From NCBI GenBank assembly GCA_037176885.1, contig JAWWNJ010000019.1:1550001-1614000 (forward strand): a DNA stretch of 64,000 bases, in the 5' to 3' direction. The notes below the pieces were generated by a model, which was not told the origin of the DNA, did not search any database, and saw nothing but the letters and a program-made list of their open reading frames with translations. The position numbers and the translations under genes are program-made. This document shows positions 18,905-48,500 of the stretch, piece after piece; the stretch's first letter is position 1, and each line of letters starts with the position of its first letter. The stretch is from Favolaschia claudopus (Eukaryota; Basidiomycota; Agaricomycetes; Agaricales; Mycenaceae).

Positions 18905-20149
18905 GGTGGAAGAGACTAGGCAAGCTGAGTAACCAATCGAACATCAAAGAACTATTTATCCCGCCAGAATGACGTCACCGGCAATTCCCGATTTCAAATC
19001 ACCGAACAACAGTGAGTTCAAGTTCAACTGTTCAATTTTTCAATGGATGAGTCGGCTTGTGTAGAGGCGGAGATCATTCACTCGGTAAGCTGGAAAGTTT
19101 ATGACCATTTGGTCATCTGGCAGTTGAACAAACAACAGATGAATGACTTGGATTCGAGTAACTTCAAGTTAGCCTTCTCCGAGTCTTCGATTTTGAACTG
19201 GTCTGGAGTCAGTCAGTGGACTCCACCTCAGAGTCCAAGTAGCTATGCCAGAGTACTTGCACCTCTAATAACGCGCCGACGGCACCGGGTGCATCCGCGA
19301 CGAGTGGATCTATTGCTCTGTTCGCCTTACTAGTGGAAGACCGTTCGACTCGGGGTCGGCTCTTACGAAGTGCGGAAAACATTTTTTGTTTCTTTTTCTC
19401 TTCCATTCTGCATAGTTCCAAAAGCTGGGTCAGTGTGTAAAAGGAGAATTGTATGGGATATCTCCTAGAGCCTTCAATACAGTTTCAACATATCGATTGA
19501 TGCGACTGAATGCATACATTCAGCGGTGTGGAGATGCTCGGAAAAGGAAGCCGACGCACAATTAATGACCTCCTCGTCATCCAAATCCAACGCATAGGTC
19601 CTCCTCCGTTCGATTCGAAACCAAGCCATGAAGAAGGTGTTTGCCGGGTGCCCTCGACTTCCCATTCAGAATAACTTCAGTTACGGACCTGATAATCCTT
19701 TGCTACGCGTTCTTTTTACAACTTATCGAGTGCAGATTCATTGTTGTACACTGCTTCTCGCGCATCGTTCACCCGGACCGAGAAACAGAGTACAGTATCT
19801 GACAATCGGGATTCGACGGGAATTCCCGCGAAGTTTACGAAAATTGTGAGGATCCATGAAGCAGCATGAAGCTAGCTTTGAGAATATCGCCGTTGAGAAG
19901 CAATAAAAGGTTTTCCCCATGTCAAACTCCCGCAGACTTTCTGAACTCCCACAATTCGCATACGTTCCCTATAATTAGCTCGGGTCGGCCCCGGACCGCC
20001 GACATAGAGCCCACCACGTGATGGAAAAACTCGCTGCCGACGTTTGGCCGACGCCAAGCCGGACGGCGGTCGGCTCTTTGTCCGATACCATAAAGAAAAT
20101 TCTCTCCACATGAGTCGACCCTCACCCTCTCCTCGTTTCCTCCAGCTCC
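18905..20149. other. intergenic between SOD and MFS gene
   Basis: Holds the SOD promoter on the left and the MFS promoter on the right, with CACGTG at 20015-20020. No convincing gene; short open frames at 19043-19333 and 19474-19665 have no features. Confidence 0.5.
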
Positions 20150-31752: not shown

Positions 31753-32114
31753 TAGATGAAAGAGGTTATGGGATGTACTCTTCTACATGAGATGAAATAG
31801 AAAGATCTGTGATATCCAGGCTGCCTGCTCGGCGGCTGAAACTGACTCGGACTGAACGCAACAACTTGACTCGCACAAATGGGTTGCCACTATCAGGTGA
31901 CCGTGTTTTGTCACGTCACCACTGCTGATGGTCAAGATTTGATGGTGTTTTGTCGATCTCTGTTCTGACTCTCACGGCGCTGGGGTCATTTTTGTCGTTT
32001 TCGCTTTCTGTACTTCGAGTTCGGTCTGTCCGGGCGGGGAATCAACTAGAAGCAACAGTATGTGACAAGTTGTGTGATGGCTGGGCTGCTTCTTACTTCA
32101 AGTTTCAAAAACCA
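31753..32114. other. intergenic, F-box gene promoter
   Basis: No gene. 31960-32020 (CTGACTCTCACGGCGCTGGG, TTTTCGCTTTCTG) resembles 29095-29150 in upstream module 3, so part of the duplicated module extends in front of the F-box gene. Confidence 0.45.
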
Positions 32115-33305
32115 ATGAATACCAGCTTTCCGACAAGCGAACTCCCGTCTGAGTTGTGCGACTGCACACGCACCATGCAGAGCGTAGGAGAAGATCGTGC
32201 TTTGATAGCAGAAATTAGAATTCGCCTTCGCGATCTTGAACGCTCCATTCACTCGCTACGTGCTCAAGAAGCGACGGTCCAACAACGGCTTGACTCCTAC
32301 AAATATCCCGTCCTTACATTGCCTAACGAGATCACCTCCGAAATCTTTATCCACTTTCTGCCTCCATATCCGGAATGCGCTCCTATCGTCGGCCCTCTTT
32401 CCCCGACGTCTCTCACTCATATTTGCCGCAAATGGCGGGCAATTGCGCTCACAACTCCCGCTCTTTGGAGTACACTGGGGCTCAGTGCTTTGAGTAGCCC
32501 ATTACTCAGTCAACTCAACTTCGAAGGGCGGAGCACGATCATCAATACGTGGCTGCGTAGATCCGGCTGCAGCCCTCTCTCTATTGAAATCGACCAATAC
32601 TGGCCTGCAGCGAGCTACTGTCCATCGGAGGCAGTACTGGCAGTGATTCCGCTTTTCCGACGTTGGGAACACCTCAAGCTCACCCTTGGCGGCGAATTCT
32701 TCCCCGAAATCGACGGCACCGTGCCTTTACTTCAGTCACTGCATCTAGCGTTGACCTCCGAAACTGCGAATTCGGCCCCATTTGCATCATGTTATATGCC
32801 GAAACTGCGCTCTGTGCTCCTCACATATCCATTTTCGTTGGATGCGCATCTTCCCTGGGACCAGTTGACCTCGCTCGGCCTTCACGACATGGAGCTCATA
32901 CCATGTGTGACGATATTGCGTCAAGCCGTGCGGCTGGAGCACTGCTCTTTGGCGTTCTGGGATGATGTGGATGTGGTTTACACCGATCCGAATATTTTTC
33001 TTCCGTGCTTGGCGACTCTCGATATGAAGTCAGCGAGGCAGGTATCTGGATTTCACGCTGCCCTCATTGTTCCTGCTCTACGCCAACTCGAAATTCCGGA
33101 GCTGTGGCTGGAACCGGACCCGATCGAGTCACTCAAATCGTTTATAACGAAATCGGGATGCAAATTGGAAGGGTTATGCATTGGCCGCACCTCTGTCGGG
33201 AATATACTCGTGCTCGAGGATTCGTACGAGGATGCCTTTCCTGACATTCCTCATGTATGTGTGGAGTTTATCGATTATGGCGCCCAGTCGGACAATAATG
33301 AGTGA
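32115..33305 (+). CDS. F-box protein with LRR-like region
   Basis: Substrate adaptor candidate for an SCF ubiquitin ligase. Single exon, about 396 residues. The N-terminus has a coiled-coil stretch (LIAEIRIRLRDLERSIHSLR), then the F-box core LPNEITSEIFIHFLPPYPEC ... LTHICRKWRAIALTTPALWS with the conserved CRxWRxIAxxTPxLWS ending usual in agaricomycete F-box-like proteins. Degenerate leucine-rich segments follow (LFRRWEHLKLTLGG, LLQSLHLALT, LRSVLLTYPF). The frame is open upstream to 31950, but ATG 32115 gives the usual distance to the F-box. It is embedded among DUF6534 genes. The substrate is unknown. Confidence 0.85.
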   Translation: MNTSFPTSELPSELCDCTRTMQSVGEDRALIAEIRIRLRDLERSIHSLRAQEATVQQRLDSYKYPVLTLPNEITSEIFIHFLPPYPECAPIVGPLSPTSLTHICRKWRAIALTTPALWSTLGLSALSSPLLSQLNFEGRSTIINTWLRRSGCSPLSIEIDQYWPAASYCPSEAVLAVIPLFRRWEHLKLTLGGEFFPEIDGTVPLLQSLHLALTSETANSAPFASCYMPKLRSVLLTYPFSLDAHLPWDQLTSLGLHDMELIPCVTILRQAVRLEHCSLAFWDDVDVVYTDPNIFLPCLATLDMKSARQVSGFHAALIVPALRQLEIPELWLEPDPIESLKSFITKSGCKLEGLCIGRTSVGNILVLEDSYEDAFPDIPHVCVEFIDYGAQSDNNE

Positions 33306-38691: not shown

Positions 38692-39444
38692 CCGCGCGAG
38701 GGTTATGCAGAGGCGGGCGGCGTTGTTTTTAGGCGGGGTGCCCTTCTTACGCCGCTTTCTTTGAGGTTCAACCCTCAAGTACCATGGATCTGCGAGGTGG
38801 CTGTCTCGACTCGAGTCTCATCGTCGGCCCTCATTCCCATTCCCATCCACGACAATTCATTTCACTCGTTTACGACTGGTTCGACGATTCATTCATTCAT
38901 TCATTCCTTCATTTCACGCACCTCGTCACGCGCATGACTTTCAAACAACTTGTATCAAACAACTCACCACCGACCGCCGCATGATGCACGACATCCCTAT
39001 GAACGCGAACGCGAGACCCCTCCCCTCCACCCCTCCACTCCACTCCACTCCGCTCTCAGTTGCGAAACCCCGACCGACCATCTCACACATCCCGACATTT
39101 CTGGCATGCAGATATTGTAGCATGTTAGCATTTTGGTGGCGAAGAAGAATGAAGAAATCGAGAAGGATGTGGGAAGTAGAACGAAGAATTGAAGGCGGAA
39201 GAAACGAGAAGAAGAATTGAAAGGGGAAGAAGAAGAAGAAGAAGAAGAAGTATGTAAATAAAAGCATCGCATCGCATCGTCTGTATACATTTATCGCTCA
39301 TCTCTCATCCATCCATCTATATATCTTTTAGTTAGTTAGCTTAACCCGCATTTGCATTTGCTGTCGATTGGAATATGATTTGAAGTATGATTTTCTGCGG
39401 GGTAAGTCGATTGAAGGGGATCAAGTGAATAGGTATCAGGATGA
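38692..39444. other. intergenic with simple repeats
   Basis: Contains (ATTC)n at about 38890-38910 and a (GAA)n tract at about 39205-39250. No gene. Likely the 3' flank of the orphan gene followed by the start of the tRNA-like array. Confidence 0.5.
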
Positions 39445-39546
39445 GACCCAGTAGCGGTGGTCCGCGCCTGCGTCAAGTGTCAATGACTCAGTGTTGGGGG
39501 TCTCTATTATCTGCAGGGAGTGTTCGTTCGATTCGGACCTGGGTCG
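39445..39546 (+). ncRNA. tRNA-like gene, type 1, copy A
   Basis: Cloverleaf read directly: acceptor GACCCAG/CTGGGTC (7 bp), TA, D-like stem GCGG/CCGC with only a TGGT loop, anticodon-like stem CCTGC/GCAGG enclosing a 41-nt loop, 4-nt variable region, T stem GTTCG/CGGAC (one G-T pair) with loop TTCGATT, discriminator G. A-box-like TAGCGGTGGTCC and B box CGTTCGATTCG. A T6 run at 39572-39577 can end Pol III transcription. The D loop is too short for a canonical tRNA and the loop insert differs between copies, so this is a tRNA-like RNA, not an assignable tRNA. Confidence 0.65.
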
Positions 39547-39863
39547 TTCCTTGCTTGTTCGCTCTGTTAAATTTTTTCGTTGAATCTCGGCTTTGTTCTC
39601 AAGCTTGGGGGGAAATCTGTGGAGACTTCAGTTATAGACCGTCGCCGCATATGCAAATGCAACTGCGATGATACGTTGCCAGTGACGCGTACCGATGCTC
39701 GACAGCGCGCTATGGTCAATGTACGTTTGATTTTGGCCTTGCTGGGATTGCGACTCGGAGTCGCGTTGAGAGCTGAAACAGAGGGTCCTTTCATTTTTAT
39801 TCATTTTTACTCAGACTCAGCCGCGTTCTCATTTAAAGCGAAGTGCATTCAATTTCTTTTCAA

Positions 39864-39956
39864 GCTCAGTAGCGGTGGTCCGCACCCGGAGGCCGTGAGT
39901 TGCCCTGCCAGTTCCAAGTAAACACCGGGAACAGTCGTTCGATTCGAGCCTGGGCG
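39864..39956 (+). ncRNA. tRNA-like gene, type 2, copy B
   Basis: Acceptor GCTCAG/CTGGGC (6 bp), identical TAGCGGTGGTCC segment forming GCGG/CCGC, anticodon-like stem CCCGG/CCGGG (5 bp perfect) around a 35-nt loop, T loop TTCGATT with a 3-bp inner stem (TCG/CGA). T5 at 39980-39984. The type 2 hallmarks are the GCTCAG acceptor, CCCGG stem and GGGAACAGTCG 3' block. Confidence 0.6.
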
Positions 39957-40204
39957 TACATCAAAATCTCGTTGGCATCTTTTTATTTCATTTTCGTATT
40001 GAGAAGGTGAGGACTTCGAGGCGAGGGATAATACCAGGGCTTTACTTCAATTTTTTCTGGTAATCCAGGAAGCTGGAATGCCAAGCAGCCAATCAGTTCA
40101 TACAACTTTTGGTTGTTGAGATTTTGGGTCGCGGTAACTGGTAAGTCAATTTGACGGGATAAACCAGTGAGATACTTATATGTAGACCAGAAGCTGCCAG
40201 AAGA

Positions 40205-40297
40205 AGACCCAGTAGCGGTGGTCCGCACCTGCGTCAAGTGGATGTTGGGGGGTCTCTATTCTCTGCAGGGAGTGTTCGTTCGATTCGGACCTGGGTC
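40205..40297 (+). ncRNA. tRNA-like gene, type 1, copy C
   Basis: Same stems as copy A: GACCCAG/CTGGGTC, GCGG-TGGT-CCGC, CCTGC/GCAGG around a 32-nt loop (first bases GTCAAGTG shared with copy A, the centre different), GTTCG-TTCGATT-CGGAC. TTTT at 40316-40319 and T6 at 40323-40328. The best-formed copy of the set. Confidence 0.68.
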
Positions 40298-40661
40298 GTC
40301 CGTATCTTGATTGCCCTTTTGGATTTTTTGTTGGATAACTTGGATTTCGGCTTTGGTTTTGGGGGAAGTCTGTGCAAACTTCGGTTGATAGAACGTCGCC
40401 GCACATGCAAATGCAACTGCGTTGATACGTTGATCAATTGACGCGTATCGATGCTCGACAGCGCGCGCCCGGTCGAAGGAAAAATGCATGTTCGATTCGA
40501 GATTCGCGTTGAGGAGTCTAAGTCGACAAGGCGGCCAAGAAGCCCTTCGTTGTTTCCGCAGACTTGATGTTCAAGTTCTCGTACGCTCGTACAGCGTTCG
40601 AATTTTGAAGCAGAGCACATTTTCTTTTCAAGCTATTGGCTAAAACATTGAGCATTCAAAT

Positions 40662-40754
40662 GCTCAGTAGCGGTGGTCCGCACCGGGTACCTGTATCAAT
40701 CTCCTGATTCTATGTATATACACCGGGAACAGTCGTTCGATTCGAGCCTGGGCG
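40662..40754 (+). ncRNA. tRNA-like gene, type 2, copy D
   Basis: GCTCAG/CTGGGC acceptor, TAGCGGTGGTCCGCA, self-complementary CCGG segments on both sides of a long loop ending ATATACACCGGG, T loop TTCGATT. T5 at 40775-40779. Confidence 0.6.
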
Positions 40755-41019
40755 TTCAAGATTTCGGTGGAATGTTTTTATCTCGTTTTTGGATTGAGAA
40801 GGTGAGGACCGTGACTTCGGGGCACCGGATGATACCAGAGCTTTACTTCACTTTTATTATATCTGGTAATCCAAGAAGCTGTAATGCCAATCAATTCATA
40901 CAAGTTTGGTTGTTGCGACTCATCGATTCTGGGTCACATCAAGTACTCACTCGAGTCAATTTGGGAGGGACAAAGTGATCTGCGTAGTAGTAGCCCACTC
41001 GCAGCAAGAAGAAGACCGA

Positions 41020-41116
41020 GGTCCAGTAGCGGTGGTCCGTCCCTGCGTTACATAACTGCTGTCCTCCGGTTGATTCTTATCTGCAGGGAGCGTTCGTTCG
41101 ATTCGGACCTGGGTCG
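41020..41116 (+). ncRNA. tRNA-like gene, type 1, copy E
   Basis: Acceptor GGTCCAG pairs with CTGGGTC using two G-T pairs where copies A and C have Watson-Crick pairs. The D-like stem is GCGG/CCGT (G-T). CCTGC/GCAGG encloses a 36-nt loop. T arm GTTCG-TTCGATT-CGGAC. T5 at 41135-41139. Pairing is kept despite base changes. Confidence 0.63.
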
Positions 41117-41574
41117 TTGTCCCATTGGGCTTTCTTTTTCAAGCTAATATGAGTAATTGGATCCAGTTCGAACTTTGTTGCTCTATTGGATTTTTCGAAA
41201 CCAGTTGGATCTCCCGAGAAGTTTTGGGCTCAGAAAAATTTGCGGAGACTTCAGTAGATACTTATGATACTTACTTGTTTCGACTCCATGCAACTGCGCG
41301 TCCACCGTCACAGACTACAGTAGCTCCCCTCGCTAAGAGAATTCGAATCTTGATATCAATGCTCCAAGAGCGAAACGACGAAACGGACACAGCCTGAACA
41401 CAAGTCGAAATCAAAACAAATTGCTTTCAAGGTCCCGAAGACTCACTACTTATATACACACCACTCCTACTCTTCTTCTGCACTTCACTCACTCCTTCTA
41501 CTCTTCTTCACTCCCTCCTCCTCTTCTCCACTCACTACAACCCGCACACCAATCACCCACCCCATCACTACACA

Positions 41575-43951
41575 CTACACCCCCCACCCCACCTCCTCCC
41601 CCCTCCTCCTCTCCCTCTCCAGCTCCCCCCACGCCGGCAGCCCAAACAACCCGGGTAACCGCTCCCAAAAGCGCCCCCGCCGCGCCATCCAGTCGGCTTT
41701 CATGTATGCGAGGCAGGGCGGGCAGACGGAGAGGCGGGTGAAGTCCTAGGAGGAGGGGGAGGCGGGGTTAGTGGGATGCGGGAAGGTATATGAATGGGTA
41801 GGTAGAAAGACAAGAAGAGCGGGAGATCGAGCAGACAAGAGCACTGAAGTGCAAACGCACACCCGATTCCCGAAGACAAGAAGAAGCAAAAAGCACAAAA
41901 ACAAAAACAAAACAAGAAACAGCCACTTACCTCCTCCCCCCAAATCGCCCTCCCCCCCCTCCTCCCCCTCCTCCACACTCGCACTCCCAGCCCCATCCTG
42001 ATCCATGCCCTCACCTCCTCCCGCACTACCCTCCTGCCCCCGTCCTCCCGCACCCCCGCCACGCGAATCCGTGGATATCCCGTCATTTTGGCGCGACTCC
42101 GCAGAAATCTCCCGCTCATGCCCGCCCCTCCACCCCGAACACACCGCAATCGGCAGCAGCGCATCCGAGCGCCACCTCTCCGCCGCGACGCGCATCGCGA
42201 GGCGGTTCGCCGTGCAGGGGTTCGTTACGCCTTCCGTGCCTGGAAGGTATGGGGTAAGCGAACGCAATGGGAATGTAAGTAAGAGAAGAGGGGGGAGAAG
42301 GAAAACAATAGTAACAAGTAGGATAGAGGGCTTGGATGTAAGAGACGTACCACTCGCCGCCACACCACTCCCCCCACCCGCACCCCCAGCACCCGCATGC
42401 ACACACCCAGGACACACCGTCGGGCTCCACAAAAACCCCAACAACTCGCTCGTCCCCTCGCCCAACAGCGCGTTCCCTGCCTCGAGGAGCAGGACCTTGT
42501 CCCCGCGCTCGAGCTCGACGTGGACGACGCCGTAGTCGATGCCTTCCTGGAAACGTCGATGATCAGTGGGGGTTACGCAGAAAACAAAAAACAAAGGAAA
42601 GAAAGAGAAGCGGAAGAAAGGAGACGAGGTAGAAAGAAAAACGGGGAGAGGAACACGCACAAGAATATCCAACGCCGTCACCATCCCACTCGTCAACGCC
42701 GCCGCCGCCCGCAAAAACGCCGCCGGCAGCACCCACGGCGCGCGCGCCGCCCTCGCCAGCGTCAATATCGGGAGCTCCAGGTGCGACGGGTCGAAGGAGG
42801 GCCCGGCGTGGGCGGCGACTACTGCGCCGATGGTTGGGCGATGTTCTTGTACATGTTGTGGGAGAGATGAAGATTGTTGTTGCGAAGAAGTAGAGGAAGT
42901 GGAAGAGGAAGCGGAAGTAGACGCAGCGGGACTAGCCGCACAGAGCGCATCCCACGCCGCGAGGCTGGTGGGGTGCGCGGAGGAGAGGTGCTGCAGCGCG
43001 CGCCGGCGCAGGGGCTCGACGCGGTATTTGGTGCCGAGGCGGAGAACGCCGTGGATGGCGTCGAAGTCGGTGCGCGCGGGGTAGGGGGCGAAGAATCTGT
43101 TTTGTGGGTGGGGGGAGGTGGTTAGCGAAAGATCTTGTACACCTGAATTGGAAAGCGGGGATTTGAAATGAGAGGGAGAAGGGACTTGGATGAATGACAC
43201 CGCAGCTGAATCCCCAACCTGCGTCCTACGGTAGGTGGAGACAAAATGAAAGACACCCTGGTAAGCGCCTCGTGGCGCGGGGTGAACTCGGAATATGTAT
43301 CAAGTCCCCGGTCGACTCGCTGCTATGCTACTCGGTTCCTGCCAGCGCAGCAAGAAAGGAATCCCTCCAACCCGCCTCCTCGTCCGAGTCGCCCTCCCAC
43401 ATTCACATGGCAAAGCGTGCCCCAGGGATTCCTGCGGTGAAGACAAGACACCCTAATTGGGGCTTGAGGGTACCACGGATGTCAAGGTCAAGGATAAGAC
43501 AGTGCAGGTAAGCGCCTCGTGGCTCGGAGTGAACTCGGGACATCAACATCAAGTCCCCGCTCGACTCGCTGCTCCTGACAGCGCAGCAAGAGAAAATCCC
43601 TTCCCCCTCCCACATTCACATCGCAAAGCACCACAGCGTGCCCAAGGGACGATGACGGCGTTCGGCCAACAACGGACATGCAAGGAAAAGAGTAGACACG
43701 CACTCGTAATCAAACAACGCCTTCAAAAAATACATCGTATCAGCAGCCGAGTCGTCCAGGTGGAGCACAGGGCAGCCTTCGAGCGTCTCTGCGTCCTCCG
43801 GCTGCGGAAACGCCAGCATGTCAGCAAACACTGAGGATCTTGCTGCCAAGATGCCCTTGAAGACGCGGAAGAGCACGCCGTGCGCGCAGAGGACGATGTT
43901 GCCGTCAGGGAACCATAGAGAGTCGACGCGCTCCATTGTGGAAAGTTCCAT
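41575..43951 (-). CDS. BTB/POZ domain protein
   Basis: BTB domains mediate dimerisation and Cullin-3 or transcriptional partner binding. The minus-strand start MELSTMERVDSLWFPDGN leads into the BTB core IVLCAHGVLFRVFKGILAAR, SSVFADMLAFPQPEDAETLE and VLHLDDSAADTMYFLKALFD. After a long intron (about 43105-43700) come RFFAPYPARTDFDAIHGVLR, LGTKYRVEPLRRRALQHLSS (the usual second block), then ALTSGMVTALDIL, EGIDYGVVHVELERGDKVLL, an EGVTNPCTANRLAMRVAAER exon, and a final exon DFTRLSVCPPCLAYMKADW ... FWERLPGLFGLPAW. The Cys pairs (CPGC, CPPC) are typical of agaricomycete BTB proteins. Stop at 41575. GC-rich with pyrimidine-rich introns. An extra N-terminal exon upstream of 43951 is possible. Confidence 0.78.
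43236..43640. repeat. tandem duplication inside the large BTB intron
   Basis: 43260-43420 and 43502-43650 share GGTAAGCGCCTCGTGGC, GTGAACTCGG, ATCAAGTCCCCG and CGACTCGCTGCT blocks, then AGCGCAGCAAGA and CCTCCCACATTCACAT. The copies lie about 240 bp apart. Confidence 0.6.
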
Positions 43952-44613
43952 AATGGCGGCCTCGGTGTAGTGGGAGTGTTTGGGTGAGAGCTTGAAGTGG
44001 TGGTCGTTGCGACGACGTAGATGCGAGATTTCGTCGCCGTCGATGTCGATGTCGTCTGTCGCGAAGAATGTGGGGCTTCGATGACGCGCACAGGACCTTC
44101 AGGGGATGTGGGGAACGACGACGACAAGCAAGGTGAGCGATAGAGACGACGAGGAGTCGTGTGCTGGCACAAGATCTGGCTGTGTGGGTGCAACGTGTGG
44201 GGAAGAGAGCAGGAAACGAAGGCCTAAGCGTGGAACAGGCGGCAAAATTAAGGCACTGCCCGAATTCGGAACGGGCCGTTCTCGTCCGATCAGTATTGGT
44301 GTCTATTTTGGGGTTTCAACAGGTTGAATTCTGATTTTTCTACAGCCGCGACTGGCGGTGGCGGTAGATTATTGTGCGGGGTCGCTCATAGCATATTCCT
44401 GGTCCGCGGGGAGGCGGGCTGTATTTTTATTAGGCAGATTCGTTGCACTTCAAGGTCACTGGGGAACGCCAACCAAAGGCCAACACGAAATTAATTATGA
44501 ACTGCAGAACATTAGCAACTTAGATAGCCCAGCTGATGCCGGAGTAAAGCTCTGGTGTTATCCGGTGCCTCAAAATCCCGGGCGAGAAAAAAAGCTTCAC
44601 CCACAATGTAGAA

Positions 44614-44710
44614 CGCCCAGGGTCGAATCGAACGACTGTTTCCCGTGTATACTTATTGGAAAGCGTCAAAAGTACTCATAATCACCGGGTGCGGACCACC
44701 GCTACTGAGC
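44614..44710 (-). ncRNA. tRNA-like gene, type 2, copy F
   Basis: Minus strand: GCTCAG/CTGGGC, TAGCGGTGGTCCGCA, stem CCCGG with CGGG after about 40 nt, T stem GTCG/CGAC (4 bp) with TTCGATT loop. T7 (A7 on plus, 44587-44593) follows within 25 nt. Confidence 0.62.
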
Positions 44711-44849
44711 ATCTATAGGCTCAATGTTTCGTCTCCGATAGCTTGCTCAAAAAATGAACTCCGCTTCAAATGAGAAAGCCGATTCTGATCATCATAAGTC
44801 GAAAAGAAAGAACTTTTCTCGGAGTTCAACTCTCAGCGCGAATCCTAGC

Positions 44850-44930
44850 AAGGCTCGAATCGAACGAGCATTTTTTCCATGACCCTAGACTCTGACCACT
44901 GCTACCGATTCAGAGCTTTGGTACGCGCGC
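44850..44930 (-). pseudogene. decayed tRNA-like copy I inside spacer 1
   Basis: Minus strand keeps GGTAGCAGTGGTC (two changes from the A-box-like segment) and a perfect 5-bp T arm GCTCG-TTCGATT-CGAGC, but the acceptor pairing is lost and no T4 follows. A further-decayed counterpart lies in spacer 1 of the plus array at about 40470-40505 (GTTCGATTCGAG). Confidence 0.5.
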
Positions 44931-45133
44931 GCCAACGTACATATTAAAGCAGTTGCATCTGCATGTACGCTTACGGTGTCTGTCTCGACTGAAGCTGGGC
45001 AAATATTCCCCCGAAACCAAAATCAAAGCCAAGATCCAACGAAAATTCTAAAAGATTCAGAGCAGTCCAACACAATTCGAACTGCATCCCATAACTTACC
45101 AGCTCGAAAAAATTGCCGATGCCTTAGTACTTA

Positions 45134-45226
45134 CGACCCAGGTCCGAATCGAACGAACGCTTGCAGATAATGTTATCCATCCATCATATATTATTTAACG
45201 CAGGTGTGGACCACCGCTACTGGGTC
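45134..45226 (-). ncRNA. tRNA-like gene, type 1, copy G
   Basis: Minus strand: GACCCAG/CTGGGTC perfect, TAGCGGTGGTCC followed by AC (one D-stem mismatch), CCTGC with GCAAG (one mismatch) around a loop that starts GTTAAAT, T arm GTTCG-TTCGATT-CGGAC, shortened variable region. T6 (A6 at 45107-45112 on plus). Confidence 0.58.
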
Positions 45227-45482
45227 TTGCTGCGGCTCCGGAGCTGGGAGGTATTCCTATGAGGCAGATTCAGAATCATTGCACTCCAAGTTCAACTTGG
45301 GAAATGGCAGTGGCAGCGTACTAAAATTCAATTTATGAACTGACCGATCATTTGGTGAAGTGGGATTGCCAGATGAAAGTGAAGCAAACCTCTGGTTATC
45401 ACGTTCCTCAAAGCCTCGAGCTTCCCATTACGAGTTGAATCAAAGTTGAATGGGAGAAAAAAGAAGTCACTTACAATCCCGA

Positions 45483-45530
45483 CGCCCAGGTTCGAATCGA
45501 ACGACTGTTCCCGGTGTATACTGAGGGAAA
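45483..45530 (-). pseudogene. 5'-truncated tRNA-like type 2, copy H
   Basis: Only the 3' half is present on the minus strand: ATACACCGGGAACAGTCG, TTCGATT loop and CCTGGGCG. The T6 run is kept (A6 at 45457-45462). The D arm and 5' acceptor are absent beyond 45540. Confidence 0.55.
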
Positions 45531-45540
45531 GTCATCGCGA

Positions 45541-48500
45541 TTGGTGTGTTCCCCGCAGGCAGATGAAAGATGATCTGAATCGTCTTTGACCAGAGGCATG
45601 CCTGGATCTTTCCTTCGTGTCATGCAGGTATTCTGGGACGGACATCCTGAGCTCTCTTTCCGAAGTCGATGGCTTGTGAGTCTATACTGAGCTCATAAGT
45701 CTGGAGATATCGCTGATGGTCGACTTTACGCATTTCTTAGCTGGTTGTGATTGCTGGAGGTTGGATCGCTTCGTGGGTTGGTTACGAGCTCCCGGACAAA
45801 AGACTGAGGATGAATAAAACGAGATTTCCGCCTGCAAAGAAGGTCGATTGAGTTGTTGGCACTGGGATATGGGTATAATTCGAGGGACTTGTGGTTGTAG
45901 TCTAAATCTGGTTCGAATGAAATGTACTTTTATTCTCTCGAATGATAAACGGTTTACGGTCGAGCTTGAGCAAGATGCACGACAACAACCACCTGGATCG
46001 AGTCCAGTCGAGGACGAAAGCTCCGGATCCGGATCCCGGAAATGAATCCGGCGTATGCGAAGGAGGGAGAACTTGTCGAATGATACCAGAGCTAGAAGTC
46101 GATTATGCAGTGAGGGCGACGGTGAAGATGAAGCCGGCGTAAACCGTTAGAAGCGGGTCGGATCCTGTCACAAGTGTGACCAAGGTGTGACGTACCCGCT
46201 CACTACGCTCAGACCCGCTCATCGTCTTCCACAAGGGCCACAAACCCTTGAGCGGTCGACGTTTTCGTCAAACCCGTGTACCGCTTCCCATAATCATTGT
46301 TTGCTCATTGCTGGCTGCTGTTGAGGGAGCGGGGACTCGTAAATTATAAGATGCACATTAGGCCCCTCAAAAGCACTCTGTGCTTCCCATAACCAGCTCG
46401 TACTCTCTGCAATTTACAAGGCCGTGTCTTCCTCGAGCTCAAGCGCCGGCGGCTTTGGAGACCGCCTCCATTCTGTTGCAAAACTAAGGCCTTGGGATGT
46501 ATGAAAGACGTTGTATGAAAGACGTCAGTCCGGTTCCTTGTCTTGCTTGCACTTGTACTCAACGTCATGTACAGGACGTCCTTGGACATCGCTGTGCTGC
46601 GGGAAGGAGTGGGTCATTCGTTTTCAGTGAACGCGAAGCTGACGCGCTTGCTTCTCTTCCAGACCCACTGTCCTGTCTTCCGGCACCGTTGAGCCTCGCC
46701 GCACGCTTTCCTTCCTCGGCTTCGCCATCACCGTGTATACAGTAGCGCTCCAAAACGCTCCTCCTCTTCGGCACGCCTCCCCCCAAGCCACATCCACAAT
46801 TACACGGCTGCCTTGACTGAATAGGAATCCCAGAGTACCGGTGCATGAGCTGTCAAGACGCTCAGCGGTCGTATGAGTTGAGAGGTATGTAAGGGCTTGG
46901 TTCCTTTCCCAATTCGTGACGTGCTATACTGAAGTCCTTGCGTCGTAGGATCCTGCCAATCACCCGCTTGCTAAGGTTGTGCGTCTCAGCGCGACAAGCG
47001 CAGACGAGATAACTTCTGAGGACCAAGATGACTTGCAAGGACCACTACCAGCACAGCTGTCGCTCCGGACGCGTACGCTGGAAGGATGTGGATGCGTAGA
47101 GTAACCCAGTTCTGAGCCCATTGTGAGCAGTTCCCGCCCAAGTTCAATGTCCACCAGTTCTTATCGACGCGTTTGCGCGCTAGCCGTACCATATGGCGCG
47201 TATGACCTTGAAAGGAATACACGGCATCGAGCTAGTCGCAGCTGAGCGCTGGAGCCCGACTGTACCAGAAAGACAAGAGACCAACGGCACCTCGGCTTTC
47301 GACGACGCCTCGATGAACCGAGCATTGGAGATGAAACGTCGTTAGCGGGGTTGACAACAATATGGGACGAACACGGCAGGCGGATGATCGGTATGTGACT
47401 CGCCACCTCACCCCACTTTCTATCTCACTGACGCGCACGCAGACGACTTGACTGTGCTGTTCAATACTAGGTCGATGACCCGTCATTCTGCTCCTCGATA
47501 ACAAGCTGGCTGCTCTTTCCCGCGAACTTCGATCGTGTACAAAACCAATGGTTGAGACATCCCCCAGCTCTGACCACCGGCGCACGGACTTTATCTCAAA
47601 CCCAAGGCACCGACGCCTCCGGATCCGCCTCCCACCGCATCTTTTCTAAATCACGCAGACTCCATCCATACATAGCGAACGGGAGGATGCGAGGCGTGCG
47701 TCCGCTCGATGAGGCGGTCCGATCTGAAGGCACCAAGCTGGGCTAGGTAAGCGATTATTCAATATCCTGCTTAAAGCATTCCTCATCTCGCACAATTACA
47801 AGCATTTTGCATTGAGGACGCGTGGCAAGAACTCCAAGCGCGGCCCTCGACCGTTTATGTCCCGAAATGCAGTGGTCATCCAGCACGCACGCACGCTCGA
47901 AGATGATTCACAACAGCACTTCACAAAACGACGGTCCCCTTTGTAAACGGCTTGTCTGGGTCCTGGCCACTGCCTCTCGATCTCGTAGACGCGGCGTTGT
48001 ATCGTCGTCGCACGCCCGTCTCACGGACGTCTCCCATCTCCCGTCCCGCTCGGGCTCCCCTCCGGAAGCTCTCCGTGTGCATGCGTGCGTAGCTGGGCGT
48101 CGGCGTGAGACGGATGCTGGAGGTCAAGGTGGAGCTGGAGATGGATGCATGCTGACGTGGCCAGATCCACGGGCTCGAAGGAGGACCTCGAAGTTTTAGC
48201 GTCCCTCAAGCATTCTGCCGCGATGTTTGCTGTCATCCACGATATCGTAGACGCTAGTCTTTGAATCGCGCGCGTCAGGGGGGACGTTCCCATCTCAGCC
48301 CCTGCGCGACGCCGGGCGGCTTCCGTTCCCTCCCTTCGCGAGGACCAGCATATCCCATAGTCGGGCTTCGTGATTCGTCGCAGGTGGACAGGACGAGAGT
48401 AGCGAGAGGCTCTTTTACCCTATACAGACGCACCCAATACGCTACGACGAGCGAACACAAAATCAATCATTGACAATCAACAACCAAGGCATTACAAGCG

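Follow-up and report, generated by a model that had tools for sequence, protein, structure and literature searches.

The locus studied here raises the question of whether a cluster of repeated tRNA-like sequences represents tRNA genes, mobile elements or a family of structured RNA genes of another kind. It lies at positions 39445-45530 of a 64,000-nucleotide stretch of Favolaschia claudopus DNA (hereafter the window), in which the first-pass annotation had described a cloverleaf-like family in two opposed arrays.

Copies within the window

The two opposed arrays were found to contain seven full copies of cloverleaf-like plan together with two decayed copies, in agreement with that description. 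They fall into two kinds, A (GACCCAG/CTGGGTC) and B (GCTCAG/CTGGGC), and were scored with two family covariance models, R1 and R2.

On the plus strand, the copies of kind A occupy 39445-39546 (R1 89.3 bits; T run 39572-39577), 40206-40298 (93.8 bits; T runs from 40317) and 41020-41116 (86.3 bits; T run 41135-41139), the last with two compensating wobble pairs in its closing stem in the alignment. Copies of kind B are located at 39863-39957 (83.4 bits; T run 39980-39984) and 40661-40755 (89.3 bits; T run 40775-40779). The minimum free energy fold was a four-arm cloverleaf for the copy at 39445 and a non-cloverleaf structure for that at 39863. On the minus strand, one copy of kind B (44613-44711; 87.9 bits; T run 44593-44587) and one of kind A (45134-45226; T run 45112-45107) are complete; the latter reached 71.3 bits although it was absent from the sequences from which R1 was built.

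Both decayed copies are also on the minus strand. At 45482-45527 only the 3' half of a kind-B copy is left (R2 27.6 bits, E 7e-5), with its T run kept 19 nt downstream, and at 44845-44911 the T arm is kept while the D region is altered and the closing stem lost (R2 36.0 bits, E 3.7e-7). A candidate lone member on the plus strand, 19271-19362, scored below significance (R2 16.7 bits, E 0.063, for 19276-19359); it has a possible closing stem, GCCGAC (19275) with GTCGGC (19355), a T run at 19382-19387 and a non-cloverleaf minimum free energy fold.

The A-box 12-mer had been described as unchanged in seven copies and the B box as present in all nine, and both statements held. The sequence TAGCGGTGGTCC, at the A-box position, matches exactly at seven places in the window, all within 39445-45530, and the B box CGTTCGATTCG at nine places in this segment, with a tenth match at 19607. 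When one mismatch was permitted, CGTTCGATTCG gave 12 matches in the window against a shuffle mean of 1.86, and none of 100 shuffles reached 12. Oligo-T runs (T4 or longer) begin 18-25 nt past each of the seven full copies, within the 15-30 nt originally proposed.

In 11 copies from the window and two homologous contigs, standard pairs filled 95.0% of cells, compared with 89.9% after shuffling; sliding the partners lowered the figure to 49.1% or less. The T stem is weaker in kind B, with the outermost pair broken in all four B rows and the next pair in three of the four. Two copies of the alignment have a loop of no more than 8 nt, and single-sequence folding energy was unremarkable (z from +0.11 to -2.12 for 16 sequences folded). 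Letters resembling TATATGTAG, located about 30 nt upstream, were common to several copies of kind A.

Size and spread of the family

The T arm CCCGTTCGATTCGGG occurs exactly 242 times in the 264.6-Mb assembly and not once when read backwards; other pattern counts against backwards controls were 16 versus 0 and 337 versus 1. Arrays of strongly diverged relatives are spread over the assembly, and 133 distinct elements were collected. By extrapolation, the family comprises roughly 550-800 elements in an assembly that seemingly includes more than one haplotype. The first BLAST searches, which returned no more than three homologous contigs, would have given a false picture of this spread. The family is genome-wide, and the view of the first-pass annotation that it was locally amplified was therefore abandoned.

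Outside this genome, the exact box pattern had no match in GTDB genomes or in IMG/VR, a second element pattern had none in IMG/VR, and phages gave no match. No such family was described in the literature searched (titles and the beginnings of abstracts in one open-access library), and excerpts of two surveys of fungal non-coding RNA contained nothing of the kind (PMC5640933, PMC5040776).

Conserved structure

In an alignment of 114 elements, compensatory changes were present in 19 of 20 pairs across the closing stem, the D hairpin, the stem at the anticodon position and the T arm. Paired cells amounted to 92.6%, compared with 71.4% after shuffling and at most 46.3% with partners slid, in an alignment that was fitted to the covariance model and with a shuffle that leaves relatedness in place. 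RNAalifold recovered the closing stem, D hairpin and T arm unaided, and did not propose the anticodon-arm stem.

The two ends of 60 elements formed closing-stem duplexes of -10.6 kcal/mol, whereas swapped ends gave -6.9 +/- 0.36 kcal/mol and none of 10,000 trials was as low; these ends were taken from model matches, and relatedness was again left in place. Whole elements folded only mildly better than shuffled ones (mean z -1.13).

The most constant letters are those of the T loop (TTCGATT) and the D loop. The D loop is mostly 4-5 nt long and reads TGGT in 50 of the 114 elements, so that the elbow letters of tRNA, GG in the D loop and TTC in the T loop, are kept.

Pol III-type signals

The elements have the plan of a Pol III gene: internal A and B boxes, represented by conserved letters in the D and T arms, are followed by an oligo-T terminator. 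T5 occurred within 45 nt downstream of 121 of the 133 elements and upstream of four; among loci used for neither model, the counts were 63 and 2 of 71, respectively. The A box departs from the usual consensus, and the upstream profile contained no general TATA signal.

The median distance from the element to the start of T4 is 21 nt (quartiles 19-24 nt), compared with 5.5 nt in 30 genuine tRNA genes, so that the trailers are about four times longer than those of genuine tRNAs in this genome. The predicted transcript would be approximately 110-130 nt long. Its tRNA body would comprise the closing stem, a small D hairpin whose loop is TGG(T) and a T arm whose loop reads TTCGATT, and would be followed by a trailer (about 21 nt) and then oligo-U.

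The anticodon-arm loop

The loop of the anticodon arm is about 30-35 nt long and showed no fold of its own in the folding test. In 13 pairs of elements its interior was 83.9% identical, in contrast to 67.7% and 71.2% in the flanks. Of 111 arms, 93% have T at position 12 and 85% have a purine at position 11; in genuine introns of the genome, T at position 12 was uncommon (3 of 20). Pairing of the pre-tRNA type within the arm, on the diagonal expected for an anticodon-intron helix with a 3-nt bulge at the 3' splice site, was found in 0.40 of cells, compared with 0.34 for swapped loops (z about 4), a weak effect for which 94 of 114 rows were used. Loops did not match the remainder of the window beyond the shuffled level, the mean longest match being 10.51 compared with 10.35 for shuffled loops.

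It is possible, though speculative, that this loop is a guide or a tRNA-intron-like RNA. Most likely, the tRNA body would protect the RNA and bring it to the proteins that handle tRNAs. The open loop would be the working part, pairing with or binding a target while still part of the RNA or once released from it. The fixed point of any such release might be arm position 12, which corresponds to the start of a tRNA intron and is nearly always a U preceded by a purine. The full version of this proposal, a dedicated RNA-guide system on a tRNA chassis, is rather unlikely as a whole: several hundred diversifying, arrayed genes would carry unstructured loops of about 30 nt that find their targets by complementarity, perhaps freed by the tRNA splicing endonuclease at the fixed purine-U step.

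A precedent is found in yeast, where free tRNA introns (fitRNAs) silence mRNAs by complementarity, as stated in a section of a review (PMC13247085). Yeast intron-containing pre-tRNAs and the present elements both add sequence to the anticodon arm of a tRNA body. The family differs in that the decoding part is not kept, the D loop is short and the genes are diverged and arrayed in hundreds. The Pol III-transcribed milRNA genes of Neurospora are likewise fungal small RNA genes with poly-T, and boxes are marked at some loci; in the part of the report concerned, milR-1 has no predicted A or B box (PMC3547838). In the present family, by contrast, the unit is the cloverleaf.

An alternative with an appreciable though minor chance of being correct is that these are protein-binding RNAs made by Pol III, comparable to vault or Y RNAs. 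Body and loop together would then be the scaffold, sponge or regulator of a protein that binds RNA, and would not pair with a target. The element follows the same plan as vault RNA genes, which have boxes A and B, a closing stem, a variable middle and a T run; vault and Y RNAs alike are short Pol III transcripts in which a closing stem encloses a variable middle part. A loop that is conserved and unfolded would also fit a protein-binding site. On the other hand, the stretches searched had no match to the vault or Y RNA families of Rfam. No partner protein was found either: the shoulder domain of the major vault protein was unmatched, but its control matched nowhere, and TROVE was unmatched with a control that matched in one of 14 cases, and in both searches introns could hide the gene.

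Mobile elements, trailers, tRNAs and DNA sites

Tandem, diverged members, rather than near-identical and scattered ones, make it very unlikely that the family consists of mobile elements, either tRNA-derived SINEs or Helenus-type LTR elements with a tRNA-like Pol III promoter. The family does resemble these, being tRNA-like with a Pol III promoter and present in many copies genome-wide, and Helenus TRIMs with tRNA-like LTRs have been reported from Agaricomycetes (PMC10886601). Helenus elements are recognized by two near-identical LTRs, a primer-binding site, a polypurine tract and a 5-bp target duplication, of which LTR pairs were tested in 16 stretches. No direct-repeat pair of at least 60 nt exceeded 85% identity, and six pairs reached 80-85% at distances of 761-5,133 bp.

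The first-pass annotation had held out a dispersed SINE, with tails and target duplications, as the contrary outcome. A5 followed only one of the 133 elements, and flank matches of at least 8 nt, found in eight of 132 compared with 3.4 for swapped flanks, were in slight excess. With such tails nearly absent and no close LTR pairs in the 16 stretches, the SINE and LTR readings were rejected. The RNA structure of the family is moreover conserved by compensatory changes in its stems, whereas for Helenus the author states that the predicted structures do not support an RNA function (PMC10886601).

It is comparably improbable that the trailer itself is the product, released by RNase Z in the form of small RNAs some 22-27 nt long with U ends. 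The narrow range of trailer lengths would suit this, but no part of the transcript is less conserved than the trailer (75.0-76.9% identity, compared with 95% in the body). In the tRNA-linked miRNA precursors of murine herpesvirus, a non-decoding tRNA-like part is made by Pol III and the product is a downstream hairpin. The family shares a tRNA-like part that is probably non-decoding and made by Pol III, and differs in that only a short, poorly conserved trailer follows it.

The possibility that the elements are ordinary tRNA genes, or pseudogenes, with introns was considered highly improbable and rejected, as the first-pass annotation had anticipated. A cloverleaf and A and B boxes are present, genuine tRNAs of this genome often contain introns, and one subfamily is nearly canonical (D loop AGAGGTA, five of 114). 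However, genuine tRNAs of the genome score 37-61 bits with RF00005, while the elements had no match at E<=5 in 39001-46200 and loci L029-L035 or at E<=1 in 20 further loci, with L009-L013 and L066-L069 lying outside the search. Nor was there any Rfam match at the gathering score in the window, consistent with the earlier view that the family was an unrecognised one.

U33 is not kept, T being present at that position in 27% of 111 arms, and ARAGORN called 17 of the 133 elements, with 16 anticodon readings. The missing Rfam match and the failure of ARAGORN to call most elements are probably due to the short D loop and the long anticodon arm. The trailers are also much longer than those of genuine tRNA genes, and pseudogenes would not keep their pairs by compensatory change, as is seen here. 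With a D loop reduced to roughly TGGT, variable anticodons and no fixed U33, these RNAs are unlikely to decode codons.

Finally, the elements might act as mere DNA sites, namely boundaries or insulators that bind TFIIIC and need nothing but the boxes. This would account for the constancy of the T-loop and D-loop letters but is scarcely credible, given that compensatory change preserves the closing stems, which lie outside the boxes, that T runs are kept and that the loop is conserved.

Significance of the family

Taken together, the elements very probably constitute a real, array-forming, genome-wide family of non-decoding Pol III-type RNA genes. The structured Pol III-type, tRNA-like plan of the first-pass annotation was upheld. 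Judged from the genes, they would be transcribed by Pol III in the cell and their RNAs would have lost decoding.

If expressed, this would be a very large family of non-coding RNA genes, without an Rfam match in the stretches searched and mostly missed by ARAGORN, in which tRNA bodies have been turned into carriers of a conserved loop. It suggests that annotation can overlook whole tRNA-like families. Provided that it is expressed, it would also offer a specific system in which a regulatory role of tRNA-intron-like RNAs could be examined.

Copies in the Window and Homologous Loci

The first-pass annotation had reported at least eight tRNA-like sequences in 39445–45530; seven full and two decayed copies were found there, and its motif counts were confirmed, with the exact A-box 12-mer TAGCGGTGGTCC in seven copies and the exact B box CGTTCGATTCG in nine. 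Five full copies (39445–41116) lie on the + strand and two (44613–45226) on the − strand; the decayed copies occupy 44845–44911 and 45482–45527. R1, a covariance model built from 11 copies (six of the window and five of two homologous contigs), scored the seven full copies at 71–94 bits, including 45134–45226, which was outside its training set.

The locus is present in three versions within the assembly (264.6 Mb, 460 contigs): the window on contig C19, and versions at about 397 kb on C41 and at 5–14 kb on C192. Because long blocks of their left flanks are alike at about 81–90%, these look like haplotypes or homoeologs; the genome would be strongly heterozygous, hybrid or duplicated. The two opposed arrays described earlier are present, and their orientation is accounted for by an inversion relative to C41 (loci L009 and L010), which covers the inter-array gene segment and the second array (window 41566–45229), with breakpoints in or near the arrays.

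A second conserved block (CATGCAAATGCAACTGCG...) was seen in the array spacers at 39634–39710, 40388–40466 and 44939–44977; its two + copies are 93–96% alike, and a degenerate T-arm-like motif follows at 40489. Part of the inter-array gene, 43616–43951 (−), presumably resembles a mushroom BTB-domain protein, and Pfam gave no match for it. A non-coding-looking segment is duplicated at 43260–43416 and 43507–43629 (about 213–249 bp apart, pieces 78–96% alike), and an F-box-like match at 31950–33302 (+) had an E value of 2e-4 but fell short of the Pfam cut-off.

Genome-Wide Distribution

The family had been described as locally amplified, and this view had to be abandoned. Genome-wide, the exact pattern TAGCGGTGGTCC-N(22–52)-CGTTCGATTCG occurred 16 times, the T-arm 15-mer CCCGTTCGATTCGGG 242 times and the core CCGTTCGATTCGG 337 times, compared with 0, 0 and 1 occurrences of the backwards controls. 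Contigs C48, C133, C170 and C188 hold 11 of the 16 pattern matches, and R1 added members without exact boxes on them; across 11 loci searched it gave 50 matches (E ≤ 0.01), 32 of them in L029–L035, of which L030–L035 represent a single array region in homologous versions. Among the CCCGTTCGATTCGGG matches listed, a part of the 242, 24 contigs were represented, and a scan of 23 such loci with R2, a broader model of the family, yielded 22 full-length matches over the 15-mer (E ≤ 0.1) and one partial match. Since CCGTTCGATTCGG was carried by 26 of 62 elements in the box-pattern loci, or 26 of 44 without window-type loci, its 337 occurrences extrapolate to a rough total of 550–800 elements. Array neighbours had a median spacing of 339 bp and shared a strand in 62 of 67 pairs.

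Genuine intron-bearing tRNA-Lys genes were noted at C133:105778 and C170:482068, no more than about 10 kb from family arrays. In the window, a lone candidate member lies at 19271–19362 (+), closed by a GCCGAC/GTCGGC stem and followed after 20 nt by a T6 run; its R2 E value was only 0.063, and its MFE fold was not a cloverleaf. A second weak match, at 19535–19628, had no T run.

Gene Plan and Structure

T5 or longer, a region outside both covariance models, was found within 45 nt downstream in 121 of 133 elements, compared with four in the 45 nt upstream and one inside the element. In loci that had contributed to neither model, which hold 71 elements, the downstream and upstream counts were 63 and 2. 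T4 was present downstream in 130 of 133 elements, with a median distance of 21 nt to its start (quartiles 19–24); for genuine tRNA genes of this genome, the median was 5.5 nt (quartiles 3–10, a few at 17–20; 30 genes, one of the 31 taken not having been called in place by ARAGORN). Judging from sequence, the elements are probably transcribed by Pol III.

Closing stems vary among members (e.g., GATGCG/CGCATC, GAACGA/TCGTTC, ACCCGGC/GCCGGGT and GGTCCAT/ATGGACC). In a 114-element alignment fitted to the covariance model, 92.6% of cells were paired, compared with 71.4% after shuffling, which leaves relatedness in, and at most 46.3% after sliding; changes on both sides were observed in 19 of 20 pairs. 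RNAalifold proposed the closing stem, D hairpin and T arm from this alignment unaided, and did not propose the anticodon-arm stem. In 60 elements, duplexes of the 5′ and 3′ ends (model matches plus five extra bases) averaged −10.6 kcal/mol with their own partners and −6.9 ± 0.36 with swapped ones, none of 10,000 swaps being as low, in a test in which relatedness remains. Whole-element folding was only mildly better than that of shuffles (mean z −1.13 ± 0.09, 114 elements). As read from the alignment, the family structure is evidently kept by compensatory change.

Relation to tRNA and Other RNA Classes

The earlier judgement that these are not ordinary tRNA genes was upheld. A covariance search had been suggested, and Rfam gave no match to the copies, neither in the whole window at gathering score nor in 39001–46200 at E ≤ 5, nor in the family loci searched (L009–L013 and L066–L069 lay outside this search), while RF00005 scored genuine tRNAs of this genome at 37–61 bits (at least 58 matches). 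The D loop is mostly 4–5 nt long and reads TGGT in 50 of 114 elements. ARAGORN reported two tRNAs with different anticodons in the window, or four, all different, with introns allowed; it called 17 of 133 elements, with 16 different anticodon readings, and none of 133 shuffled ones. A decoding role is unlikely given these readings, the lack of RF00005 matches in the searched loci and a T at position 33 in just 27% of 111 arms. As the D-loop GG (92–94%) and T-loop letters (94–99%) are conserved, the tRNA elbow could still form. A near-canonical subfamily (GGATTGA...TCAATCC-like), with D loop AGAGGTA in 5 of 114 elements and T loop TTCGAAT in some members, suggests that the family arose from a tRNA by later trimming of the D loop.

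No such family was found in Rfam with the loci searched, or in the accessible text of one open-access library and of the fungal surveys PMC5640933 and PMC5040776. Kinship in kind with vault or Y RNAs, the protein-binding Pol III RNAs whose gene plan is nearest to that of the family, is possible though rather doubtful: Rfam gave no match in the stretches searched, and a partner protein was not found, in a search where the MVP control also matched nowhere. Mobile elements, either tRNA-derived SINEs or Helenus-type LTR elements, are highly improbable. SINEs are marked by tails and target duplications, and the first-pass annotation had named a dispersed SINE as the counter-reading; A5 followed only 1 of 133 elements, and flank matches were barely above those of swapped flanks (mean 5.43 vs. 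5.24 ± 0.11). Helenus LTRs are expected as close, near-identical pairs, and none was found in 16 stretches.

The Anticodon-Arm Loop

The anticodon-position stem encloses a loop of mostly 30–35 nt (quartiles). Across 13 homologous pairs, the loop interior showed 83.9% identity, compared with 67.7% upstream and 71.2% downstream, exceeding the upstream flank in 12 pairs and the downstream flank in 10. A separate reckoning gave 95.2% for the 5′ stem and D arm, 95.9% for the T arm, 87.5% for the whole middle and 76.9% for the trailer between closing stem and oligo-T; this low conservation weakens the idea that the trailer is the product, which is very unlikely.

No fold of the loop's own was found (mean z +0.05 ± 0.08, 100 loops). 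Arm position 12, in tRNA numbering the first base past position 37, where tRNA introns start, was T in 93% of 111 arms and was preceded by a purine in 85%. By ARAGORN's placing, 20 of the 30 genuine tRNA genes have introns, and 3 of these 20 introns start with T, so this T is not common to genuine introns here. Pairing within the arm along the pre-tRNA-intron line was weak (0.40 of cells vs. 0.34 with swapped loops, z about 4). Two copies, L011:5174–5242 (−) and L012:2483–2551 (−), have loops of 8 nt on a compensated stem, CCTGA/TCAGG; they are natural forms lacking the long loop, which is thus not universal in the family.

Proposed Function

For a family with the gene plan, compensatory changes and conservation observed here, we propose a function as non-decoding tRNA bodies whose conserved, single-stranded loop is displayed to a target. 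Pol III would make these bodies, tRNA-handling proteins would give the RNA its stability, and the tRNA body would offer the loop to the target; such a function is deduced from sequence. In yeast, free tRNA introns act through complementarity to silence mRNAs, according to a review (PMC13247085), and are a precedent for guide action by the family loops. More speculatively, the loop may itself act as a guide, whether excised or not.
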